Assembly: GCF_004684205.1 (NCBI RefSeq)
Contig: NZ_SRIO01000005.1
Span: 124,001-188,000, forward strand
Origin: Candidatus Macondimonas diazotrophica
Lineage (GTDB): Bacteria; Pseudomonadota; Gammaproteobacteria; UBA5335
Direction of reading: 5' to 3'
DNA length: 64,000 bases
Position numbers and translations under genes: made by a program. Every line of letters begins with the position of its first letter. Within the stretch, counting starts at the first letter, position 1. Below, one piece after another: positions 48,928 through 57,099 of this stretch. Under the pieces are notes generated by a model. The model searched no databases. It was not told the origin of the DNA and saw only the letters and a list, made by a program, of their open reading frames with translations.

Positions 48928-49716
48928 TCAGCCCGGCGCCTCGGTGGCGTAGGCATGCAGCGCCAGCGTACCGAAGACCCAGTTGCGATGAATCCGCTGC
49001 ATGCCCTGACCGCCGGCAGCACCCAGGGCCACCAGAAAGGGCAGGTAGTGCTCCAGTGTGGGATGTGCGCGGCGGCCGTGGAGAAAGTGCCACGGGTCGC
49101 ACAGCGCGGCCACATCGTTGGCCGCCACTGCCTGCTCCAGAGCGGTCATGAACTCGGCCGCCCAAATCGCCGCCTGGCCTTCGGCAGCGTGCCAGTCGAT
49201 CTCGCGCAGATTGTGGGTGATACCGCCACTGCCGACGATGAGCACGCCGGCCTCGCGCAGCGACGCCAGCGCCTCGCCCAGCTGCAGGTGCCATGCAGCA
49301 TCCTGGCCGGCGCTCAGGGAGAGCTGAAACACCGGGCAGGGCGGTCCTTCGGGCCACATGGCCTTAAAGGGAACCCACAGGCCGTGATCGAACGGCCGCT
49401 CGACGGCGGCGACTGGAACGCCACGGGCCGCGAGCGCATCGCGCAGCCATGCGCCGGTCATCGCATCGCCGCGGGTTTTCCACGTTTGCGCGTACAGCGC
49501 CGGCGGAAAGCCGTAGAAGTCGTGCTGGATCGCCGGCGCAGGCACAGCACCGGCGAGCGCCAGCGTGTCTGCTTCCCAATGGGCGGAAACGCACAGCACG
49601 GCGCGCAGTGCGCCCGCATACGACGGATCGAGCTGCGACCAGTACGCGGTCGTCCGGTTGGGTTCGGTCAGAAACGTCGGTGCGCCATGGGACAAGAACC
49701 AGACCGGTTGCCGCAT
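48928..49716 (-). CDS. DODA-type class III extradiol ring-cleavage dioxygenase
   Basis: ATG 49716 with GAGGAG upstream gives 262 residues. The family (LigB-like, 4,5-DOPA dioxygenase type) is marked by FLSHGAPTF with an iron- or zinc-binding His, VSAHWEAD with a second His, DFYGFPP and ERPFDHGLWVP. GSGGITHNL follows later, with a further His. It opens catechol-type rings or has a related zinc-dependent role. It lies just downstream of the old-yellow-enzyme gene in the same direction, 53 nt away. Confidence 0.88.
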   Translation of the reverse strand: MRQPVWFLSHGAPTFLTEPNRTTAYWSQLDPSYAGALRAVLCVSAHWEADTLALAGAVPAPAIQHDFYGFPPALYAQTWKTRGDAMTGAWLRDALAARGVPVAAVERPFDHGLWVPFKAMWPEGPPCPVFQLSLSAGQDAAWHLQLGEALASLREAGVLIVGSGGITHNLREIDWHAAEGQAAIWAAEFMTALEQAVAANDVAALCDPWHFLHGRRAHPTLEHYLPFLVALGAAGGQGMQRIHRNWVFGTLALHAYATEAPG

Positions 49717-49769
49717 ATTTCCACTCCTCGGTTGATCTACCGCGCCTGCTCGCCCCCGCCCGCGTGCGA

Positions 49770-51053
49770 TTAGCGGTCCTGCAGCGCTCGAACGCCGCGC
49801 CACTCATTGCGCAGGTACCCCATCATGCCGCGCAGCGGCCCCATGGCGGGATCGGGCGCCTGCCCCCGACCAATGCGCAGCAGTTGGACGCAGTACCACC
49901 CTTGCGCGTACATGTGGTTGAAATTGCGAATGCGGTTGATCGAGCTGGCCGGGCCCAGGACGCCGGGACCGATATTCAGCCGCTCCTCGTAGCGCGGCGC
50001 CTCGGTGCACTGCCCCGCGAGCAATCGTTTCGGCAGATCGGTCTGCACGCACATCGGTCGGCCCAGCCCGATCAGATCCAGCGCGTCTTCCGCCAGGGCC
50101 TGGTTCATGCCGGCCAGGCTGCGAAAACCACCGGTCACCATCAGCGGAATCCGGCACACCTGGCGCAAGCGCTCCGCATAGTCGAGAAAGTAGGCCTCAC
50201 GAGCCAGGGTGCTCTGCGCCTTGGCCGGCGCCTTGTCGCCCTCCGCGCCGGTCCCGAAAAAGGAAAGCTGCTCATAGGTACCGCCTGAAATCTCGAGCAG
50301 ATCGACGCCCGCCTCCTGCAGCCACTGCGCGACCTGCTGGGAATCCTCGTGACTGAAGCCGCCTTTCTGGAAATCGGCGGAATTGAGCTTGACGCAGATC
50401 GGAAAGGCCGGGCCCACACGCGTGCGGATCTCGCGCACCAGCGTGAGCAGCAGACGGGCACGGTTCTCGAGGCTGCCGCCCCACTGATCGGAGCGCAGAT
50501 TGGCCTTCGGCGACAGGAACTCGCTCAGCAGATACCCATGGGCGGCATGCAGCTGAACACCGGTGAAGCCGGTCTGCTGCGCCACCGCGGCCGCCCGGAC
50601 GAAGCGTTCGATCACCCCCTCGATATCTGATTCGCTCAAGGCACGCGGCTTGCCAAATGCGCCGCCGGGCAGCTTGACGGGAACCGCTGAAGGGCCCACC
50701 GGTTCGGCGTTGAGATAGCGGATGGTCTGGCGACCGGCGTGACTGAGCTGCATCCACAACTGGTTGCCGCCCACGGTGCCGGCATGGGCCAGAGCCGCCA
50801 GCGCCTCCTCTCCGCCGTTGTTGTCGATAGCGATGTTGCCGGGACGTTCCAGGTAGCGTCGGTCGACCTGTACGTTTCCGGTGATGACGAGCCCTGCACC
50901 GCCCTCGGACCATGCCCGGTACAAGCGCTGGTGCGCCTCGGTCGCCCGATTCTGGCCGTCAGACAGGCCTTCGGTCAGCGCCGCCTTGGCCAGTCGATTG
51001 GGTAAGGTAACACCGCATGGCAATGTCATCGGTGAGGCGATGGTCGTGGTCAT
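49770..51053 (-). CDS. Old yellow enzyme family NADH:flavin oxidoreductase
   Basis: A 427-residue FMN-binding TIM-barrel enzyme. LPNRLAKAALTEGLSDG is the N-terminal FMN contact. QLSHAGRQ and GVQLHAAHGYLLSEFLSPKANLRSDQWGGS contain the substrate-binding His pair region (HAAH) and the strongest family signature. VTGGFRSL binds phosphate. Members reduce activated C=C bonds or demethylate. No Fe-S binding C-terminal domain is present. It is adjacent to a dioxygenase, suggesting aromatic or xenobiotic metabolism. Confidence 0.9.
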   Translation of the reverse strand: MTTTIASPMTLPCGVTLPNRLAKAALTEGLSDGQNRATEAHQRLYRAWSEGGAGLVITGNVQVDRRYLERPGNIAIDNNGGEEALAALAHAGTVGGNQLWMQLSHAGRQTIRYLNAEPVGPSAVPVKLPGGAFGKPRALSESDIEGVIERFVRAAAVAQQTGFTGVQLHAAHGYLLSEFLSPKANLRSDQWGGSLENRARLLLTLVREIRTRVGPAFPICVKLNSADFQKGGFSHEDSQQVAQWLQEAGVDLLEISGGTYEQLSFFGTGAEGDKAPAKAQSTLAREAYFLDYAERLRQVCRIPLMVTGGFRSLAGMNQALAEDALDLIGLGRPMCVQTDLPKRLLAGQCTEAPRYEERLNIGPGVLGPASSINRIRNFNHMYAQGWYCVQLLRIGRGQAPDPAMGPLRGMMGYLRNEWRGVRALQDR

Positions 51054-51143: not shown

Positions 51144-51881
51144 TCAGTCCGGGATGATCTTGCGGGATCGCGCCTGCAGCGCGCCCATATCGATCAGAAA
51201 CGAGAGCAAAACCAGCGTCAGACCCACCCCCGCCATGGCCTGTACCCAGGCCGCTGAGAACACGGGCGCGAAACCCGCTGTGAGCAGGGCCGCATTGGTC
51301 ACCCCGAAGACGGCGCGCCGCCGGCTTGGTGGCAAGGCACGGGACAGCGCCGGTTGCCATCGGCCAGCCAGCAGATAGCCATAACGCAAAAGGCCGCTGA
51401 TGAGCACCCAGGCGCCCACCTGCCCGGTGCGCAGCAGCAAAAGGCCTGCCACCAGAACGAACAGCGCATCGACCTCCAGGTCGAAGCGCGCGCCGAAGGG
51501 CGACGCCGTTCCCTGGCGGCGGGCGATGGTGCCATCCAGTCCGTCGGCCAGTAGGAAGGCCGTTCCCAAAGCCACCGATTCCCATCCCAGAACCGGCTGC
51601 TCCCAGCCCCAGACCAGCCAGATCAGCAGCACGCAGCCCCGCCCCGCAGTCACGTGGTTGGCCCAGCCCCAATGGACATGCGGGGCATGCGCCGGCAGCT
51701 GGCGCCAGACCCAGATGGCCGCCGGTACGAAAGTCATCAGGAAGCGCACGGCCAGGGGTAGGGCATCCATCACCGTCGGCGCAGCCAGCGTCAGAAAGGT
51801 CAGCGCCAGCACTCCGGCGCCGAGCGCGCTACCCATCACCTCCCGGTGCAACGGCGCCGCCGATCCGATCAAGTTCGCCAT
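51144..51881 (-). CDS. CDP-alcohol phosphatidyltransferase family membrane protein
   Basis: A 245-residue polytopic protein with a perfect family signature, D-G-x2-A-R-x8-G-x3-D-x3-D, in DGTIARRQ...GARFDLEVD. This site swaps CMP for an alcohol on a CDP-linked lipid. The alcohol acceptor cannot be told from sequence. It is the last gene of the six-gene set 51144-56134 and overlaps the methyltransferase gene by 13 nt, so it very likely acts in the same pathway, perhaps anchoring the product to a phospholipid. Confidence 0.87.
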   Translation of the reverse strand: MANLIGSAAPLHREVMGSALGAGVLALTFLTLAAPTVMDALPLAVRFLMTFVPAAIWVWRQLPAHAPHVHWGWANHVTAGRGCVLLIWLVWGWEQPVLGWESVALGTAFLLADGLDGTIARRQGTASPFGARFDLEVDALFVLVAGLLLLRTGQVGAWVLISGLLRYGYLLAGRWQPALSRALPPSRRRAVFGVTNAALLTAGFAPVFSAAWVQAMAGVGLTLVLLSFLIDMGALQARSRKIIPD

Positions 51882-52747
51882 GCCAGCAGATCACCATGAA
51901 CGATGCGGATCCGCAGTGCGCCACTTGCGAGCTGGGCCCGCCGCTCACGCAGCCAGGCGCCCGCCTCCTCAGCCAGGCGCGGATTCTGCTCGCAGGCAGC
52001 CTTGACGTACCCCTCCAGCCAGGCTGCGGTCAGCAATGGATAGGCGGGCCCCAGTGACCACGCACTGCAGGCTGTATCCACCCGGTAGCCCGCCCGGGAC
52101 AACGCCGCCGACCAACCGGGCAGAGCCCCGCCGCCCAGCGCTGGCCCGAAGCCCTTGTCGCGCCGCATGTGCGCAGAGAAGGCGCGGTCCAATGCGCGGT
52201 CCAATGGCTGTTGCGGGAGGCATTGCGCGCCATCGATCACATTCAGTGCGAGGTAGAGCGAATCCGTACCCGTTGCCGCGGCTTGCGCTGCGAAATCCGC
52301 AGCCCAGCGCCACGACACCAGATCGCCCCAAGCACTGGCGGCGATGGCGGAGACGCCTGCCAGATTCGGCTGCTCGCGCGCCAGATCGATGGTCTGCCAC
52401 TCGAGCTGGCAATGCCCCTGCGGTCCGCACAGTCGGGTCACCTCGCCCATCTCGAAACGCCAGCCCGGATGACTCACGGCCCAGCGACCGAAGCGCTCCG
52501 CGCCCCGCGCGATCAGGTCCGAATCGACTTCCAGGGCCTCCCAGCGCAGCGGCCGACGCAGATAAGGCAAACAGGCGCGGAGCAGCGACCCGGTTCCCGC
52601 ACCCAGCTCCACGACCCGGCCGTCGGCCGACAAACCGTCGAGCCAGCGCGCCAGCAAGCCCGTGTCACGGGCCTCGGTGTCGGCCGCCTCGCGCCAATAC
52701 AACCAGTCGGCGTCGAATCCCGCTCCCATGGCGCGCGCCTCACTCAT
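51869..52747 (-). CDS. SAM-dependent methyltransferase (class I)
   Basis: ATG 52747 overlaps the end of the glycosyltransferase gene by 8 nt, giving 292 residues. The SAM-binding motif I is RVVELGAGTGSLLRACLP (about residue 43-60). ALEVDSDLIARGAERF is motif II-like, with an acidic residue for the ribose. WQTIDLAREQPNL follows. The C-terminal half has no known family marks. The target of methylation is unknown; the neighbours suggest a glycosylated small molecule. Confidence 0.8.
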   Translation of the reverse strand: MSEARAMGAGFDADWLYWREAADTEARDTGLLARWLDGLSADGRVVELGAGTGSLLRACLPYLRRPLRWEALEVDSDLIARGAERFGRWAVSHPGWRFEMGEVTRLCGPQGHCQLEWQTIDLAREQPNLAGVSAIAASAWGDLVSWRWAADFAAQAAATGTDSLYLALNVIDGAQCLPQQPLDRALDRAFSAHMRRDKGFGPALGGGALPGWSAALSRAGYRVDTACSAWSLGPAYPLLTAAWLEGYVKAACEQNPRLAEEAGAWLRERRAQLASGALRIRIVHGDLLAWRT

Positions 52748-53813
52748 GCCGTGTCGATCGCGCAACAGCGCTGCACATGGCTTGCTCGAACACCGCGGTC
52801 GTTTCGCACCAGCCCCCCAATCGCCGGGCCTGCCGGCGCGCTTGCTTTGTCCAATGACGGCGCCGCCCGGGCTGTTCCATGGCCTGAGACAGCGCGCGGC
52901 GCAAATGGCGGGGCGCTGCACCGTGGATGCGCAGTCCGGCCGTAGGCGGAACGGTCTGAGCAATGGCACCGCCCCGGGTGGTCACGATCGGCAGGCCATG
53001 CATCAGCGCCTCTGCCAACGCCATCCCGTACCCTTCCAGACGGGATGCAGATACAAACAGATCCGCTTCATGATAGTGCCGCGACAGGGCGGCCGGATCC
53101 ACCTCGCCGGTGATCCGGACGCGGCGGCGCCAGCCCGCGCGATCGCGTCGGGCGCGAATACGCCGCGCGTAGAGCTGATCACCACGGTCGCCACCGACAC
53201 ACACCAATTGCCACGCCACCTGCCGAACACCGCTCAAGGCGGCCAGCAACCGCAAATGCCCCTTGCGGGGGGTGAGGGTTGCCACGCACAGGAGGCGGAC
53301 CGGGCCGGGCCGGGGCCGCTTCGGCAGGCGCCGCGTCACGCGCGCAGTGCCCGGTCGGGCCACATGAAGACGCGCCGCATCCAATTCCCCGCCGGCCAGC
53401 AGGGCGCGGGTCGCGGCGCTGGTGACCACCACTGCATCGACCCTGCTCAGCGCGGCGTGCTCGGCTTGGGCCAGATGCCGCGCGCGGTCGGGGTCGAGCC
53501 CGGTTTCCAGCGCCAGCGGATGATGAATCAGGGCGATGACGGGCCCGCGCGGATCGCTGCGAGCAAGCAGAGGCGCGAACGCGGGCAGCGCCAGGCCGTC
53601 GATGATCAGGCCGGCGCCCGCCGCAGCGCTGCCGGTCCAGGTGTGCGCCGCAGCGACCTGCGCCGATCCATCGGCATCGGGATGACGGCCGGCCAGCGCG
53701 TGGACATCCAGTGCCACGCCGCGCGCGCGCAGGCCAGACACCACCTCGGCATCATATCGATACCCGCCCGTGTACTGCGCCAACGGGCCGGGGACCGCCC
53801 AGTGCCACCTCAT
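52740..53813 (-). CDS. Glycosyltransferase family 4 protein
   Basis: A 357-residue GT-B fold enzyme. The N-terminus MRWHWAVPGPLAQYTGGYRYD has the glycine-rich acceptor loop. PVRLLCVATLTPRKGHLRLL and the nucleotide-sugar site ADLFVSASRLEGYGMALAEALMHGLPIVTT (containing the E-x7-E motif) identify GT4. It transfers a sugar from a nucleotide donor in the cytoplasm. It overlaps the pterin-synthase-like gene by 4 nt. GT4 enzymes that glycosylate pterins are known in cyanobacteria, which is relevant to its neighbours. Confidence 0.87.
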   Translation of the reverse strand: MRWHWAVPGPLAQYTGGYRYDAEVVSGLRARGVALDVHALAGRHPDADGSAQVAAAHTWTGSAAAGAGLIIDGLALPAFAPLLARSDPRGPVIALIHHPLALETGLDPDRARHLAQAEHAALSRVDAVVVTSAATRALLAGGELDAARLHVARPGTARVTRRLPKRPRPGPVRLLCVATLTPRKGHLRLLAALSGVRQVAWQLVCVGGDRGDQLYARRIRARRDRAGWRRRVRITGEVDPAALSRHYHEADLFVSASRLEGYGMALAEALMHGLPIVTTRGGAIAQTVPPTAGLRIHGAAPRHLRRALSQAMEQPGRRRHWTKQARRQARRLGGWCETTAVFEQAMCSAVARSTRHE

Positions 53814-54217
53814 GGATGGAGCGGTCCCTCGAAGCTGGCCCAGGCCTGGGGATTTTCCCGCAGCACCACGCGCACCTGCCGGATCCGCTCGAGCTCGTCA
53901 CGCCCCAGAGCACCCGCACGCAACTGCGCGCAGACATCGGCGTGAATCGCGGCCGCCAGGACTTCGCTGGTGGTGTTGCGTCCGGCAAAGCGAGGCAATT
54001 CGTCCAGATCACGATAGTTCAGGGGCGCCAGAACGGCGGCAAGTAACTGGGCCACCTGACCCATGTCCGCCACCACACCATCACCATCAAGCCGCTCGGC
54101 GAACAGGCTCAACTCCACCTCGAAGGTCGCGCCGTGCAACCGCTGCGCCGGCCCGAAACGTTCGCCGCGCATGCGGTGGGCGATCATGAGGTGGTTCGTC
54201 AGGGTCATTCCATACAT
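53810..54217 (-). CDS. 6-pyruvoyl-tetrahydropterin synthase-fold protein with degenerate active site
   Basis: A 135-residue member of the PTPS/QueD family, marked by LMIAHRM, RLHGATFEVEL, GDGVVADMGQVAQLL, GRNTTSEVLA and VLRENP. Compared with E. coli QueD, zinc ligands His14 and His28 are kept but the third His of HGH is Ala30. The catalytic Cys is Ala24, and the catalytic Asp-His-His stretch is Asn67-Tyr68-Arg69; Glu121 is kept. It therefore cannot use the usual mechanism and may have another activity or a structural role. It overlaps the GT4 gene by 4 nt and lies 46 nt after the dehydrogenase gene. Confidence 0.8.
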   Translation of the reverse strand: MYGMTLTNHLMIAHRMRGERFGPAQRLHGATFEVELSLFAERLDGDGVVADMGQVAQLLAAVLAPLNYRDLDELPRFAGRNTTSEVLAAAIHADVCAQLRAGALGRDELERIRQVRVVLRENPQAWASFEGPLHP

Positions 54218-54263
54218 CGGGATCGCTCCGTTTCGCAGCTCGAGTCATATCGTGGTTCGCGCG

Positions 54264-55232
54264 TCACTCGTAGGTGAGCACCTGGCACAGTGCACCGGGC
54301 GCCTCGCAGACCTTTGTCAGCGCACGCGGTGCATCGGCAAATGGCCAGTCCGGCTCGAGCAATCGGTCCAGGCGCGGATCGCGAAGCAGCGCCAACGCCA
54401 GCGCCAGCCTCCGCCCAGTGCCCCAGCGCGCGCGCCGCGAGGGGGCAACGTGGCCGACCTGAGAGGCCACGATGGCAAGCCGCTGGGCATGGAAAGCCGC
54501 GCCCAAGGGGAGCGGTACGGTCCGATCGCCATACCAGCTCAGCTCCAGCACCCGTGCCTCGAAGCCGGCCGAGGCGAGCGCGAATGCCAGTCCCTCGGGC
54601 GTACCGCTGGCATGGAACACCACGTCCGCCCCTGGCTGCGGCTCGGTGTCCGCGCCCATCCACGTCAGCCCCAGATGCCGCGCCAACGCCGCGCGCGCGG
54701 GATTCGTATCCACGAGGCTCACCTGCGTTCCGGCGATTTGCGCGCTGAGATACGCCACCAGCAGCCCGATGACACCCCCGCCCACGACCGTCACCTGATC
54801 GCCGATGCGCACGCCCGCATCCCAGAGTGCGTTGACCGCGGTTTCCATGTTGGCCGCCAGCACTGCGCGCCGGGGCGGCAGGCCCTCCGGCAGCCAATGT
54901 AAGGCATCGGGCAGCAGACGGCACCAGTCCTGGTGCGGATGCAGCGCAAATGCCCAGCGTCCCTGATCCGGTCCACTCTCCACCTGCCCGACCAGGCTGT
55001 AGCCGTATTTGACCGGGCCGGGGAATTCGCCTTCCTGATGCGGGCAGCGCATGCGTGTCCATTCACTCGCGGGGACACGTCCCTGAAACACCAGACTTTC
55101 GGTACCCCGGCTGATGCCGCTGAAGCGGGTCCGCAATGTCAGCGCATCGGGCGACGCGTGCGTGGCCGCCTCGCGCAGCGCCGCCTGCCCGGGCGCAAGG
55201 ACCCACAACGCGGTCGGCCGGCTCAGGGGCAC
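54264..55232 (-). CDS. Medium-chain dehydrogenase/reductase without catalytic Cys (BchC/alcohol dehydrogenase-like)
   Basis: I use GTG 55232, which overlaps the end of the RibD-like gene by 10 nt, giving 322 residues. The Rossmann motif is VTVVGGGVIGLLVAYL, followed by VSLVDTNPARAALARHLG with an Asp that favours NAD(H). The usual zinc-binding GxCGTD is replaced by GISRGTES (Ser41), and the GHE and structural zinc Cys motifs are missing. It should thus be a zinc-independent reductase. The SGISRGTE wording recalls the BchC-like branch. Context links it to the pterin or riboflavin-like chemistry of the cluster. Confidence 0.8.
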   Translation of the reverse strand: MPLSRPTALWVLAPGQAALREAATHASPDALTLRTRFSGISRGTESLVFQGRVPASEWTRMRCPHQEGEFPGPVKYGYSLVGQVESGPDQGRWAFALHPHQDWCRLLPDALHWLPEGLPPRRAVLAANMETAVNALWDAGVRIGDQVTVVGGGVIGLLVAYLSAQIAGTQVSLVDTNPARAALARHLGLTWMGADTEPQPGADVVFHASGTPEGLAFALASAGFEARVLELSWYGDRTVPLPLGAAFHAQRLAIVASQVGHVAPSRRARWGTGRRLALALALLRDPRLDRLLEPDWPFADAPRALTKVCEAPGALCQVLTYE

Positions 55233-56134
55233 GACACGTCCAGCTCGAAGAGCACATCCCGACCCTGCAGATAGCGCGTGGCCTGGGGACGCCGCTGGCT
55301 CTTGCACACCCCACCGGCCAGATCGATCCCCAAGCGCCCAGCGCCCAGCAACACCGGCGCAACGGTGATCTGCAACCGGTCAAGACAGCCTTGTGCCAGA
55401 AAGCGCGAGACGGTGACGCCGCCGCCCTCGATGAGAACGCGCGACCAGCCGCGTTCGGTCAGGACGTTCAGCAGATCGGCCAGATCCAGTCCTTGCGGCC
55501 CACGACGGACCGGGAGCTGCAGCACATGTGCGGGAAGGTCGGGGTTGGGCGCGGTATCGTGCGCCCGGCAGTAGACCACTGGCGCGAGCCCGTCGCTCAG
55601 CATGCGATAATCGCCGCGCAACCGGGCCTCGGTATCGATGACCACCCGAACGGGATGACGGCCCGGCACTCGCCGCACGGTCAGTCGAGGATCATCGGCA
55701 TACACGGTGCCGGCGCCCACGATGACCGCATCGACCAAGGCGCGCAGACGGTGCATGTGATCATAGTTCTCCGGCCCGGTCAGGCCGGCCGAGCGACCTC
55801 GTGCGGGGGCAATGCGGCCATCGAGGCTCTGGCCGAGATGGGCCACGACGAAGCGCCGCCCCGGTGGGCAGGCGGCCAGCGGAAGATACAGGTCGAGCAG
55901 CTGGGCAACCGCGCCCGGCAGCCCGGTCTCACTGCGCCAGCGACCATCAGCGAGCACCCGGATCCGCTCCGGATGCAGCCTGGCCATTGCATCGACTGGC
56001 TGCGCTGCATGCGCGCTCAGATCGAACGCCGCAGCCGAACCGGCCGCATTCAGCTGCGCGCGGAGTTGGCGAATCGCCGCCCAGGCCTGTTCCATGTTCC
56101 ACGATCGGACCGGGTCGCAGGTCGGCAACAACAT
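55223..56134 (-). CDS. RibD C-terminal-domain reductase with unusual N-terminal extension
   Basis: A 303-residue protein with GGAGG before ATG 56134. Residues about 90-300 are the RibD_C (dihydrofolate-reductase-like) domain: FVVAHLGQSLDGRIA, LTGPENYDHMHRLRALVDAVIVGAGTVYADDPRL, RVLIEGGG and ITVAPVLLG. It has no N-terminal deaminase domain, so it is not a full riboflavin enzyme. The first ~85 residues are an extension I do not recognise. It likely reduces a carbonyl or ring of a pyrimidine or pteridine with NAD(P)H. It is the first gene of the co-directional cluster that runs to 51144. Confidence 0.83.
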   Translation of the reverse strand: MLLPTCDPVRSWNMEQAWAAIRQLRAQLNAAGSAAAFDLSAHAAQPVDAMARLHPERIRVLADGRWRSETGLPGAVAQLLDLYLPLAACPPGRRFVVAHLGQSLDGRIAPARGRSAGLTGPENYDHMHRLRALVDAVIVGAGTVYADDPRLTVRRVPGRHPVRVVIDTEARLRGDYRMLSDGLAPVVYCRAHDTAPNPDLPAHVLQLPVRRGPQGLDLADLLNVLTERGWSRVLIEGGGVTVSRFLAQGCLDRLQITVAPVLLGAGRLGIDLAGGVCKSQRRPQATRYLQGRDVLFELDVSCP

Positions 56135-56313: not shown

Positions 56314-57099
56314 CTAGAACACGCCGAGTGCCTGCAGACAGGCTTTGCCTAATGAGATCCGCCGGTCGGCATCCTGCTGGGTACGCACATCGAGATTCAG
56401 GGCAAAGGCATAGATGGCCCCGTCGTGCTCAACCCAACCGACCCACCAGCCGATACCCGGCCGGGGGGCATTTTCCCAACCCGTCTTGCCGTAAAGCGAG
56501 CCGGTATCCCGTTCTTCCAGAAGAAGAATTTCGCGGACAGACTGCTGCACGCCGGGATCCATCGGCAGCGTCCCCTTCGCCAATCTGGCCAGGAAAAGCA
56601 CTTGTTCGACGGCGCTGATTTCAAGCGGCCCGGTTAACCAGAATTGGTCCACTTGAGTGCCGAGTCGGCGGTTTCCATACCCCAAACGATCCACCCCCGC
56701 CTGCATCCGTTTCAAGCCGATCCGGCGAGCCAGTTCCTGGTAAATGGCCACGTTCGACAGGCGAATCGCTTCTCGCAAACCCATGTCACGCTGCCATTGG
56801 GGATAGGGCTGCGGCTGACCACCGTACGGGAGCACCGCATCGACACTGGGCACACTGCCGGTTGACAATCCAATCAGGCTATTGGCGATCTTGAAGGTCG
56901 AGGCCGGGACGAAGCGGGTGTTCGCCCGCACCCGATTGTGCCCGATCAGCACATCGGCATCGACGTCATAGAGGACAAAGCTGCCCTCCACGCCAGCCGC
57001 CCGGAAGCATTCGGCCAGTATCGGACTCTCTTCCCAGATCCGACCGCAAGCGGTCTGACTGAACAAAACCATGCACAGAACGAGCGCGATGCGTTTCAT
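56314..57099 (-). CDS. Class D (OXA-type) beta-lactamase
   Basis: A 261-residue exported protein with a signal peptide (residues 1-18, MKRIALVLCMVLFSQTA) and AGGAA before the ATG. All class D motifs are present at the OXA-10 positions: Ser67-Thr-Phe-Lys70, Ser115-Asn-Val117, Tyr-Gly-Asn 141-143, Trp154 in QFWLTGPLEIS and Lys205-Thr-Gly. Lys70 should be carbamylated. It should hydrolyse penicillins in the periplasm; spectrum is not predictable. There is no mobile element beside it, so it appears to be a resident chromosomal gene. It lies between the pterin-like cluster and mnmE. Confidence 0.93.
   Translation of the reverse strand: MKRIALVLCMVLFSQTACGRIWEESPILAECFRAAGVEGSFVLYDVDADVLIGHNRVRANTRFVPASTFKIANSLIGLSTGSVPSVDAVLPYGGQPQPYPQWQRDMGLREAIRLSNVAIYQELARRIGLKRMQAGVDRLGYGNRRLGTQVDQFWLTGPLEISAVEQVLFLARLAKGTLPMDPGVQQSVREILLLEERDTGSLYGKTGWENAPRPGIGWWVGWVEHDGAIYAFALNLDVRTQQDADRRISLGKACLQALGVF

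Follow-up and report, generated by a model that had tools for sequence, protein, structure and literature searches.

A conserved bacterial gene cluster around a PTPS-IV protein and its possible role in a biosynthetic pathway starting from GTP

The gene cluster and its distribution

The window analysed here is a stretch of 64,000 nucleotides from Candidatus Macondimonas diazotrophica (contig NZ_SRIO01000005.1). It contains six genes of interest, listed below in the order in which they are read.

55223..56134, minus strand: RibD_C reductase, deaminase domain absent (Pfam RibD_C, 2e-40)
54264..55232, minus strand: MDR-superfamily oxidoreductase, BchC-like (GTG start at 55232; NCBIfam bchC, 4e-11)
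53810..54217, minus strand: PTPS-fold protein, subtype PTPS-IV (Pfam PTPS, 9e-22; FGPAQ)
52740..53813, minus strand: GT4-family glycosyltransferase (Pfam Glycos_transf_1, 3e-23)
51869..52747, minus strand: class I SAM-dependent methyltransferase (ATG at 52747; no Pfam match, assigned by predicted structure)
51144..51881, minus strand: CDP-alcohol phosphatidyltransferase-family membrane protein (Pfam CDP-OH_P_transf, 6e-11)

All open reading frames were found as an earlier note on this DNA had described them. The genes are co-directional and overlap by 10 nt (RibD_C/MDR), 4 nt (PTPS/GT4), 8 nt (GT4/methyltransferase) and 13 nt (methyltransferase/CDP-alcohol transferase), with a gap of 46 nt between MDR and PTPS.

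The open reading frames of related loci were assigned by profile searches. The combination of MDR, PTPS, GT4 and methyltransferase genes with a CDP-alcohol transferase gene was seen again in 35 genus-level groups belonging to the Proteobacteria, Actinomycetota, Gemmatimonadota and Acidobacteriota. For the MDR protein, which served as the marker of the cluster, there were at least 588 matching sequence stretches in 84,980 species genomes. In the majority of 80 named genomes, MDR, PTPS, GT4 and methyltransferase lie side by side in the same direction, an arrangement far beyond chance. MDR and PTPS-IV occur in the identical 16 of the 369 genomes of the class (Fisher p 2e-28, relatedness ignored). 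Halomonas and Streptomyces are among the carriers, and the six genes of the window represent one version of the set.

The earlier note had proposed that the genes form one pathway, and had named a gene order confined to close relatives and best matches to housekeeping orthologs as outcomes that would speak against it. The order is conserved across phyla, well outside close relatives, and none of the proteins scores above an NCBIfam equivalog cut-off; both outcomes are thus absent, and the proposal of one conserved pathway is supported. Since the set is spread over at least four phyla and is retained even in genomes of about 1 Mb, its product is probably important.

The usual full set is larger than that of the window. 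It also includes RibA, which is a paralogue of GTP cyclohydrolase II, a membrane protein resembling flippases (the flippase-like protein below), and a creatininase-family (formamidase-like) protein that adjoins RibD_C. Among 80 related loci, RibD_C was linked in 50, RibA in 52 and creatininase in 52, and a LPG_synthase_TM protein was present in 58. RibD_C was not seen in the locus of some Streptomyces clusters. In one genome (G230), RibD_C, RibA and creatininase stay together at a second site (C4: 37.4-40.6 kb), and another (G261) retains the cluster with no other RibD_C and no RibA. No RibA, creatininase or flippase-like gene was found with the window copy of the cluster or in its genus.

An altered PTPS protein

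Judged by its sequence, the PTPS protein of the window (motif FGPAQRLHGAT) belongs to the published PTPS-IV subtype of COG0720. Its nearest solved structure is 3D7J (SCO6650; E 2e-31), with which it shares FGPAQ, and the form FGPA[QRK] is found in 91 of the 94 cluster loci. Compared with QueD from the same genome, the catalytic Cys is replaced by Ala, HGH by HGA and LDH by LNY. The catalytic Cys, the third zinc His and the Asp-His dyad are therefore lost and the substrate-binding Glu121 is retained, as is the pterin-anchoring Glu in all PTPS-IV members. The CxxxHGH motif and Asp-His dyad of QueD/PTPS-I, which the genome's QueD has in full, are lacking, the motifs of PTPS-II (CxxxxxHGH, biopterin) and PTPS-III (ExxHGH, folate) are absent, and there is no HGH anywhere in the protein. 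With these catalytic residues gone, PTPS-IV is no enzyme of queuosine, biopterin or folate synthesis, and the canonical PTPS chemistry on pterins that the earlier note had taken as its basis should not be assumed for this subtype.

PF00925 and PF01872 are among the published neighbours of PTPS-IV (PMC5445326). The window shares this neighbourhood in so far as RibD_C adjoins; RibA is found only in related loci. Published work assigns no proven function to PTPS-IV, which was once ascribed to F420, as unpublished work (PMC5041015). The link to F420 is at odds with the window genome, from which CofH is absent and for which F420 biosynthesis was therefore excluded. Only one of 20 cluster genomes (G018, with a divergent cluster type) had CofH above the cut-off.

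The F420 attribution, and the domain names taken alone, would suit a duplicated housekeeping branch of riboflavin, folate, queuosine, biopterin or F420 synthesis. We consider this highly improbable: the window genome has its own QueD (CxxxHGH) beside FolE2 as well as a separate RibD, none of the PTPS-I, -II or -III motifs is present, and 19 of the 20 cluster genomes lack CofH. Of 16 genomes, 15, that of the window among them, have a housekeeping RibD in addition to the one in the cluster. A riboflavin duplicate was rejected on account of this RibD and because the cluster contains neither lumazine synthase nor riboflavin synthase.

The statement of the earlier note that no such pathway had been described holds for the set as a whole, as far as the literature is searchable. 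Full-text searches and searches of the pterin glycoside literature turned up no publication on the pathway as a whole or on the gene combination, and the papers searched do not describe the larger set with MDR, GT4, methyltransferase, CDP-alcohol transferase, flippase-like protein and creatininase. It does not hold for PTPS-IV and its RibA/RibD_C neighbourhood, which are already in print (PMC5445326, PMC5041015), or for the structure of SCO6650 (3D7J), which has been solved.

Supply of a precursor derived from GTP

The best solved-structure matches of the RibD_C family profile are the archaeal DARoPP reductases 6P8C (1e-43) and 2AZN (1e-39); against NCBIfam rib_reduct_arch, the protein scores 118 bits, which is under the cut-off of 186 bits. 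It has no deaminase domain and is nearest to the archaeal enzymes, the sequence characteristics of DARoPP reductases (ArfC/RED), and is thus predicted to be a 2,5-diamino-6-ribosylamino-pyrimidinone 5'-phosphate reductase.

In the related clusters, the creatininase-family protein, which is absent from the window genome, is tied to an altered RibA. E53/R90 or Y105 is changed in 50 of the 50 RibA proteins from loci with a linked creatininase, and unaltered RibA is confined to loci without one (5/5). For one creatininase-family protein, BrbF, activity as an AFRPP formamidase has been proven (PMC9478397). The set thus probably holds the first steps of an archaeal-style diaminopyrimidine route, the deaminase excepted. 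As in the archaeal-type start of riboflavin synthesis (ArfB/BrbF formamidase, ArfC/RED reductase), a creatininase-family protein and a deaminase-less RibD_C share loci; in contrast to it, the deaminase, lumazine synthase and riboflavin synthase are all missing from the cluster, and the housekeeping RibD lies elsewhere. The precursor steps are well supported, and the linked RibA, creatininase and DARoPP-like RibD_C agree with the earlier suggestion of a GTP-derived pyrimidine or pterin-type precursor.

The co-occurrence of a GTP cyclohydrolase gene, which the earlier note had proposed as a check, was found for RibA, the GTP cyclohydrolase II paralogue, and not for GTP cyclohydrolase I. Dependence on the latter was rejected, as FolE is absent from 12 of the 16 cluster genomes tested, among them the window genome. 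FolE2 is present in 12 of 16; in the window genome it adjoins the normal QueD, away from the cluster, and no linkage of FolE2 to the cluster was seen in the genomes whose coordinates were compared. The only GCHII-type domain of the window genome is degenerate and lacks the zinc cysteines; its genus has only a domain of the RibX type. RibA and creatininase are also missing, and the gap in precursor supply that this leaves in the window genome counts against the pathway proposed below.

Later steps and the possible product

The MDR protein remains under the Pfam cut-off (ADH_zinc_N, 3e-5). In the family alignment, the zinc His of GHE is Tyr80 (KYGY) and Ser43 takes the place of the first Cys, so that the Cys, His and Cys ligands of zinc-dependent alcohol dehydrogenases are not preserved. 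Its best NCBIfam match is BchC (3-hydroxyethyl bacteriochlorophyllide dehydrogenase), which has the GIS-GTE start motif and the loss of zinc ligands in common with it. However, MDR reaches only 42-51 bits against a cut-off of 291 bits, and a photosynthesis context is absent. The glycosylation and methylation steps suggested earlier are upheld by the GT4 protein, which has the E-x7-E motif (EGYGMALAE in the translation) in addition to its Pfam match, and by the predicted fold of the methyltransferase. The AlphaFold model of the latter (mean pLDDT 91, pTM 0.88) has class I SAM methyltransferases as its best Foldseek matches (E 1e-10).

The CDP-alcohol transferase family keeps the motif DxxDGxxxRx8GxxxDxxxD. 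The window protein has this motif and the six-helix membrane fold of CDP-alcohol phosphotransferases, and its model (pLDDT 91) resembles phosphatidylglycerol-phosphate synthase (7DRJ/7DRK) with a TM of 0.7; no close relative with a known acceptor was found. With motif and fold intact, the attachment to a lipid that the earlier note had suggested is possible, and we continue to regard it as an inference. As a universal step it is weakened, since only 2 of 9 betaproteobacterial clusters have the transferase nearby.

Gene conservation, co-occurrence, protein families and active-site changes form the observed basis for our proposal of a dedicated biosynthetic pathway for a GTP-derived compound, with a riboflavin-like start followed by addition of sugar, methyl and lipid, to which we give an even chance of being correct. 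The GTP cyclohydrolase II paralogue would open GTP and the creatininase-family formamidase would take off the formyl group. RibD_C would then reduce the ribosyl to a ribityl chain. The resulting 2,5-diamino-6-ribitylamino-pyrimidinone 5'-phosphate would keep its 2-amino group, as no deaminase is encoded. We infer all reactions following the reduction, the order of the steps and the lipid link. Oxidation of the ribityl side chain is the probable role of the zinc-less MDR. PTPS-IV retains the residue that anchors the 2-aminopyrimidine ring, though not the catalytic residues of PTPS, and probably turns the ring or the side chain pterin-like. GT4 would supply a sugar and the SAM enzyme a methyl group, the CDP-alcohol transferase would link the phosphate-bearing side chain to a lipid, and the flippase-like protein, if encoded, would carry the product through the membrane. 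The product would thus derive from GTP: a ribitol phosphate of a diaminopyrimidine or pterin, carrying a sugar and a methyl group and attached to a lipid.

Pterin glycosides are known from cyanobacteria and green sulphur bacteria. Together with the betaproteobacterial clusters and the fact that the CDP-alcohol transferase gene is often divergently transcribed, outside the operon, this precedent speaks for a product that stays in solution and is perhaps secreted, a pterin- or lumazine-like compound with sugar and methyl groups. The transferase would then use a nucleotide-activated alcohol or belong only loosely to the pathway, and the flippase-like protein would be an exporter. We regard this as rather improbable, given that the transferase is present in 69 of the 80 loci with its catalytic motif intact and that its gene overlaps that of the methyltransferase in the window. 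More doubtful still is a reading in which the cluster makes a lipid or envelope glycoconjugate and the substrate of RibD_C, MDR and PTPS-IV is a sugar or polyol, with no GTP-derived ring involved. GT4, the CDP-alcohol transferase and LPG_synthase_TM would fit it, as would the lost catalytic residues of PTPS-IV and the AlkP/sulfatase-like membrane protein and MdoG that lie nearby in some loci. Against it, GTP-derived pyrimidines are indicated by the linkage of RibA and creatininase and by the DARoPP reductases as nearest relatives of RibD_C, and every PTPS-IV member has the pterin-anchoring Glu.

If our proposal of a lipid-linked, GTP-derived compound is correct, genes presently annotated as riboflavin, queuosine and sugar enzymes belong to one pathway. 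Its product may, with a chance clearly below even, be a widespread and hitherto undescribed bacterial phospholipid with a glycosylated, methylated pterin or diaminopyrimidine head group derived from GTP, which might serve as a redox or light-sensitive cofactor anchored in the membrane.

The pathway would also provide a concrete context for PTPS-IV/SCO6650, which has a solved structure but no assigned function. The PTPS proteins of the Streptomyces clusters are 92-95% identical to SCO6650; no functional papers on SCO6650 or SCO6655 were found in the open literature. We take SCO6655 to be a GTP cyclohydrolase II homologue producing a formylated pyrimidine, as Spoonamore and Bandarian reportedly described in 2006 together with a Tyr105-to-Met switch. 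The tie between S. coelicolor SCO6650-SCO6655 and the full set consists in the near-identity of the PTPS proteins and the gene numbering. The RibA of the Streptomyces clusters has Met at the Tyr105 position, the switch reported in that work, and the pathway would offer a reason why the Streptomyces cyclohydrolase retains the formyl group.

A conserved gene set and its distribution

The six genes described in the earlier note are indeed present and co-directional, and the overlaps of 10, 4, 8 and 13 nt and the single 46-nt gap reported there were confirmed on the window sequence. In the direction of transcription, the region reads as follows.

56314-57099, minus strand: class D beta-lactamase, OXA-50/OXA-60-like (277 bits; class D cut-off 250), just upstream of the cluster
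56134 to 51144, minus strand: the cluster, in the order RibD_C reductase, MDR oxidoreductase, PTPS-fold protein, GT4 glycosyltransferase, SAM methyltransferase (MT), CDP-alcohol phosphatidyltransferase
48928-51053, minus strand: FMN-dependent OYE-type oxidoreductase and LigB/DODA-like dioxygenase, immediately downstream of the cluster

Conservation of position for the last two genes is limited to the genus (locus L030); they were thus excluded from the set. No Pfam family covers the methyltransferase. Structure prediction (pLDDT 91) gives a class I methyltransferase, and its solved relatives are all distant.

The same six-gene order is found in the genus (G002 and G003, the contig of the latter ending inside the last gene) and in the family (G005 and G004, the latter spanning a contig break). 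The MDR protein, used as query against 369 genomes of the class, gave 16 strong matches (> 190 bits) and an independent PTPS-IV profile search likewise 16 (> 170 bits), in identical genomes (16/16; Fisher p = 2e-28, with kinship of the genomes ignored). The MDR profile matches at least 588 stretches in named genomes, the best 80 of which span 35 genus-level groups: Gammaproteobacteria (Halomonas, Kushneria, Salinicola, Salinisphaera, Thioalkalivibrio), Betaproteobacteria (Thauera, Zoogloea, Variovorax), Alphaproteobacteria, Streptomyces, Actinomadura, Pseudonocardia, Gemmatimonadota and Acidobacteriota. These 80 loci were picked as the best MDR matches, and the following counts are thus biased towards this cluster type: PTPS 75, GT4 74, MT 69, CDP-alcohol transferase 69, flippase-like LPG_synthase_TM 58, RibA 52, creatininase family 52 and RibD_C 50. 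In the consensus layout, a divergent CDP-alcohol transferase gene is followed by MDR-PTPS-GT4-MT-flippase and then by RibD_C, RibA and creatininase. The MDR tree unites the Actinomycetota in a single clade and joins the window family to Comamonadaceae and Sphaerotilaceae (support 97/94) rather than to Halomonadaceae. The set is also retained in three genomes of only about 1 Mb each (G149, G261, G356).

The cluster is a real, widespread pathway built around PTPS-IV. Parts of it are already in the literature; the whole was not found in open-licence papers, and an account in a subscription journal is possible.

The PTPS-IV protein

The cluster PTPS carries FGPAQ, the published PTPS-IV signature, and the published neighbourhood of this subtype includes PF00925 and PF01872 (PMC5445326). 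Among solved structures the nearest to it is SCO6650 of Streptomyces coelicolor (3D7J), which shares 92-95% identity with the cluster copies from Streptomyces. Aligned with QueD of the same genome, the catalytic Cys is replaced by Ala, the zinc-binding HGH by HGA and the Asp-His dyad by Asn-Tyr. Two of the zinc histidines, the first and the second, are kept, as is the substrate-anchoring Glu121, a residue invariant across the PTPS-IV family. With the catalytic residues lost and Glu121 kept, canonical PTPS or QueD chemistry is unlikely, and the protein could plausibly bind a 2-amino-4-oxopyrimidine ring. PTPS-IV has also been tied to F420, as unpublished work (PMC5041015). This role is ruled out here, because CofH was not found in the window genome or in 19 of 20 cluster genomes.

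Precursor steps

The solved proteins nearest to the RibD_C family are archaeal 2,5-diamino-6-ribosylamino-pyrimidinone phosphate reductases, and the cluster RibD_C lacks a deaminase domain. A housekeeping RibD lies elsewhere in 15 of the 16 cluster genomes. The exception, G261 (locus L069, about 1 Mb), has lost housekeeping RibD and RibA; its only RibD_C is the cluster copy, and the whole cluster is kept.

All cluster copies of RibA, a GTP cyclohydrolase II (GCHII) paralogue, retain the zinc cysteines (residue numbering verified on 2BZ0). At the position of E. coli Tyr105, Streptomyces copies have Met and two other actinomycete loci His; proteobacterial copies keep Tyr105, and their Glu53 and Arg90 are replaced, mostly by Ala. 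According to Spoonamore and Bandarian, SCO6655, with Met at this position, reportedly keeps the formyl group on its product. RibA is altered in all 50 loci with a linked creatininase-family gene; unaltered RibA occurs in five loci only, all of them without a linked creatininase, as are five altered copies. This pattern is consistent with work shared between two enzymes: the cyclohydrolase would stop early and a formamidase would complete the reaction. The creatininase family contains BrbF, a proven formamidase acting on a formylated pyrimidine (PMC9478397). In G230, the RibD_C-RibA-creatininase trio lies away from the other cluster genes, yet is still together.

RibA, creatininase and flippase-like genes are all missing from the window cluster, and no creatininase was found genome-wide. 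The sole GCHII-type domain of this genome is RibX-like, without the zinc cysteines (G000:C9:46432-46905, locus L094). This leaves three explanations: the domain is functional, the assembly (96% complete) lacks the true gene, or GTP is opened by some other enzyme. G002, G004, G076, G272 and G367 show the same gap. A RibX-type GCHII domain devoid of zinc cysteines, with no canonical GCHII and with RibD present, is seen in the window genome and several relatives (L087-L093, L095-L097).

Proposed later steps and locus variants

Because no deaminase is encoded, the shared steps would end at 2,5-diamino-6-ribitylamino-pyrimidinone 5'-phosphate. The cluster MDR, closer to BchC than to other families, has lost the usual zinc ligands. 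As a chemical proposal, oxidation of the ribityl C2 hydroxyl would let the ring close through the 5-amino group to a dihydropterin, with PTPS-IV as a possible participant in this step; GT4 and MT would decorate the product. The motif of the CDP-alcohol transferase is intact, and its model most resembles phosphatidylglycerol-phosphate synthase (TM 0.7, normalised by target length; E no better than 2e-3). Since the acceptor of that enzyme is a sugar-alcohol phosphate, the ribitol phosphate side chain would fit as acceptor. The transferase is nearby in only two of nine betaproteobacterial loci, which counts against a universal lipid step. The earlier reading of the cluster, a reduced, glycosylated, methylated and possibly lipid-linked small molecule made from a pterin- or riboflavin-type precursor, was largely right in direction.

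A divergent second cluster type (L033, L070, L071, L072) has a BchC-like MDR, an unaltered RibA and no creatininase. Its RibA is fused to RibD_C in L071 and L072 and adjoins it in L070; its PTPS (L033, L071, L072) is of the WGAEN/FGAEN subtype with HxH kept. An FkbM-type methyltransferase (PF05050) recurs beside the cluster (L114:17200, L134:17200, L158:15600, L161:16040-16786 and about 15 other loci), also in Vreelandella and Halomonas loci without the usual methyltransferase. Near the cluster in 14 loci from several phyla lies a membrane protein that matches AlkP/sulfatase weakly, for example:

L113:18784-20442
L118:7290-9239
L156:4565-6193
L158:16412-18205

MdoG is found near this protein in Halomonas-type loci and one Gemmatimonadota locus, and the two possibly reflect a downstream use in the envelope.
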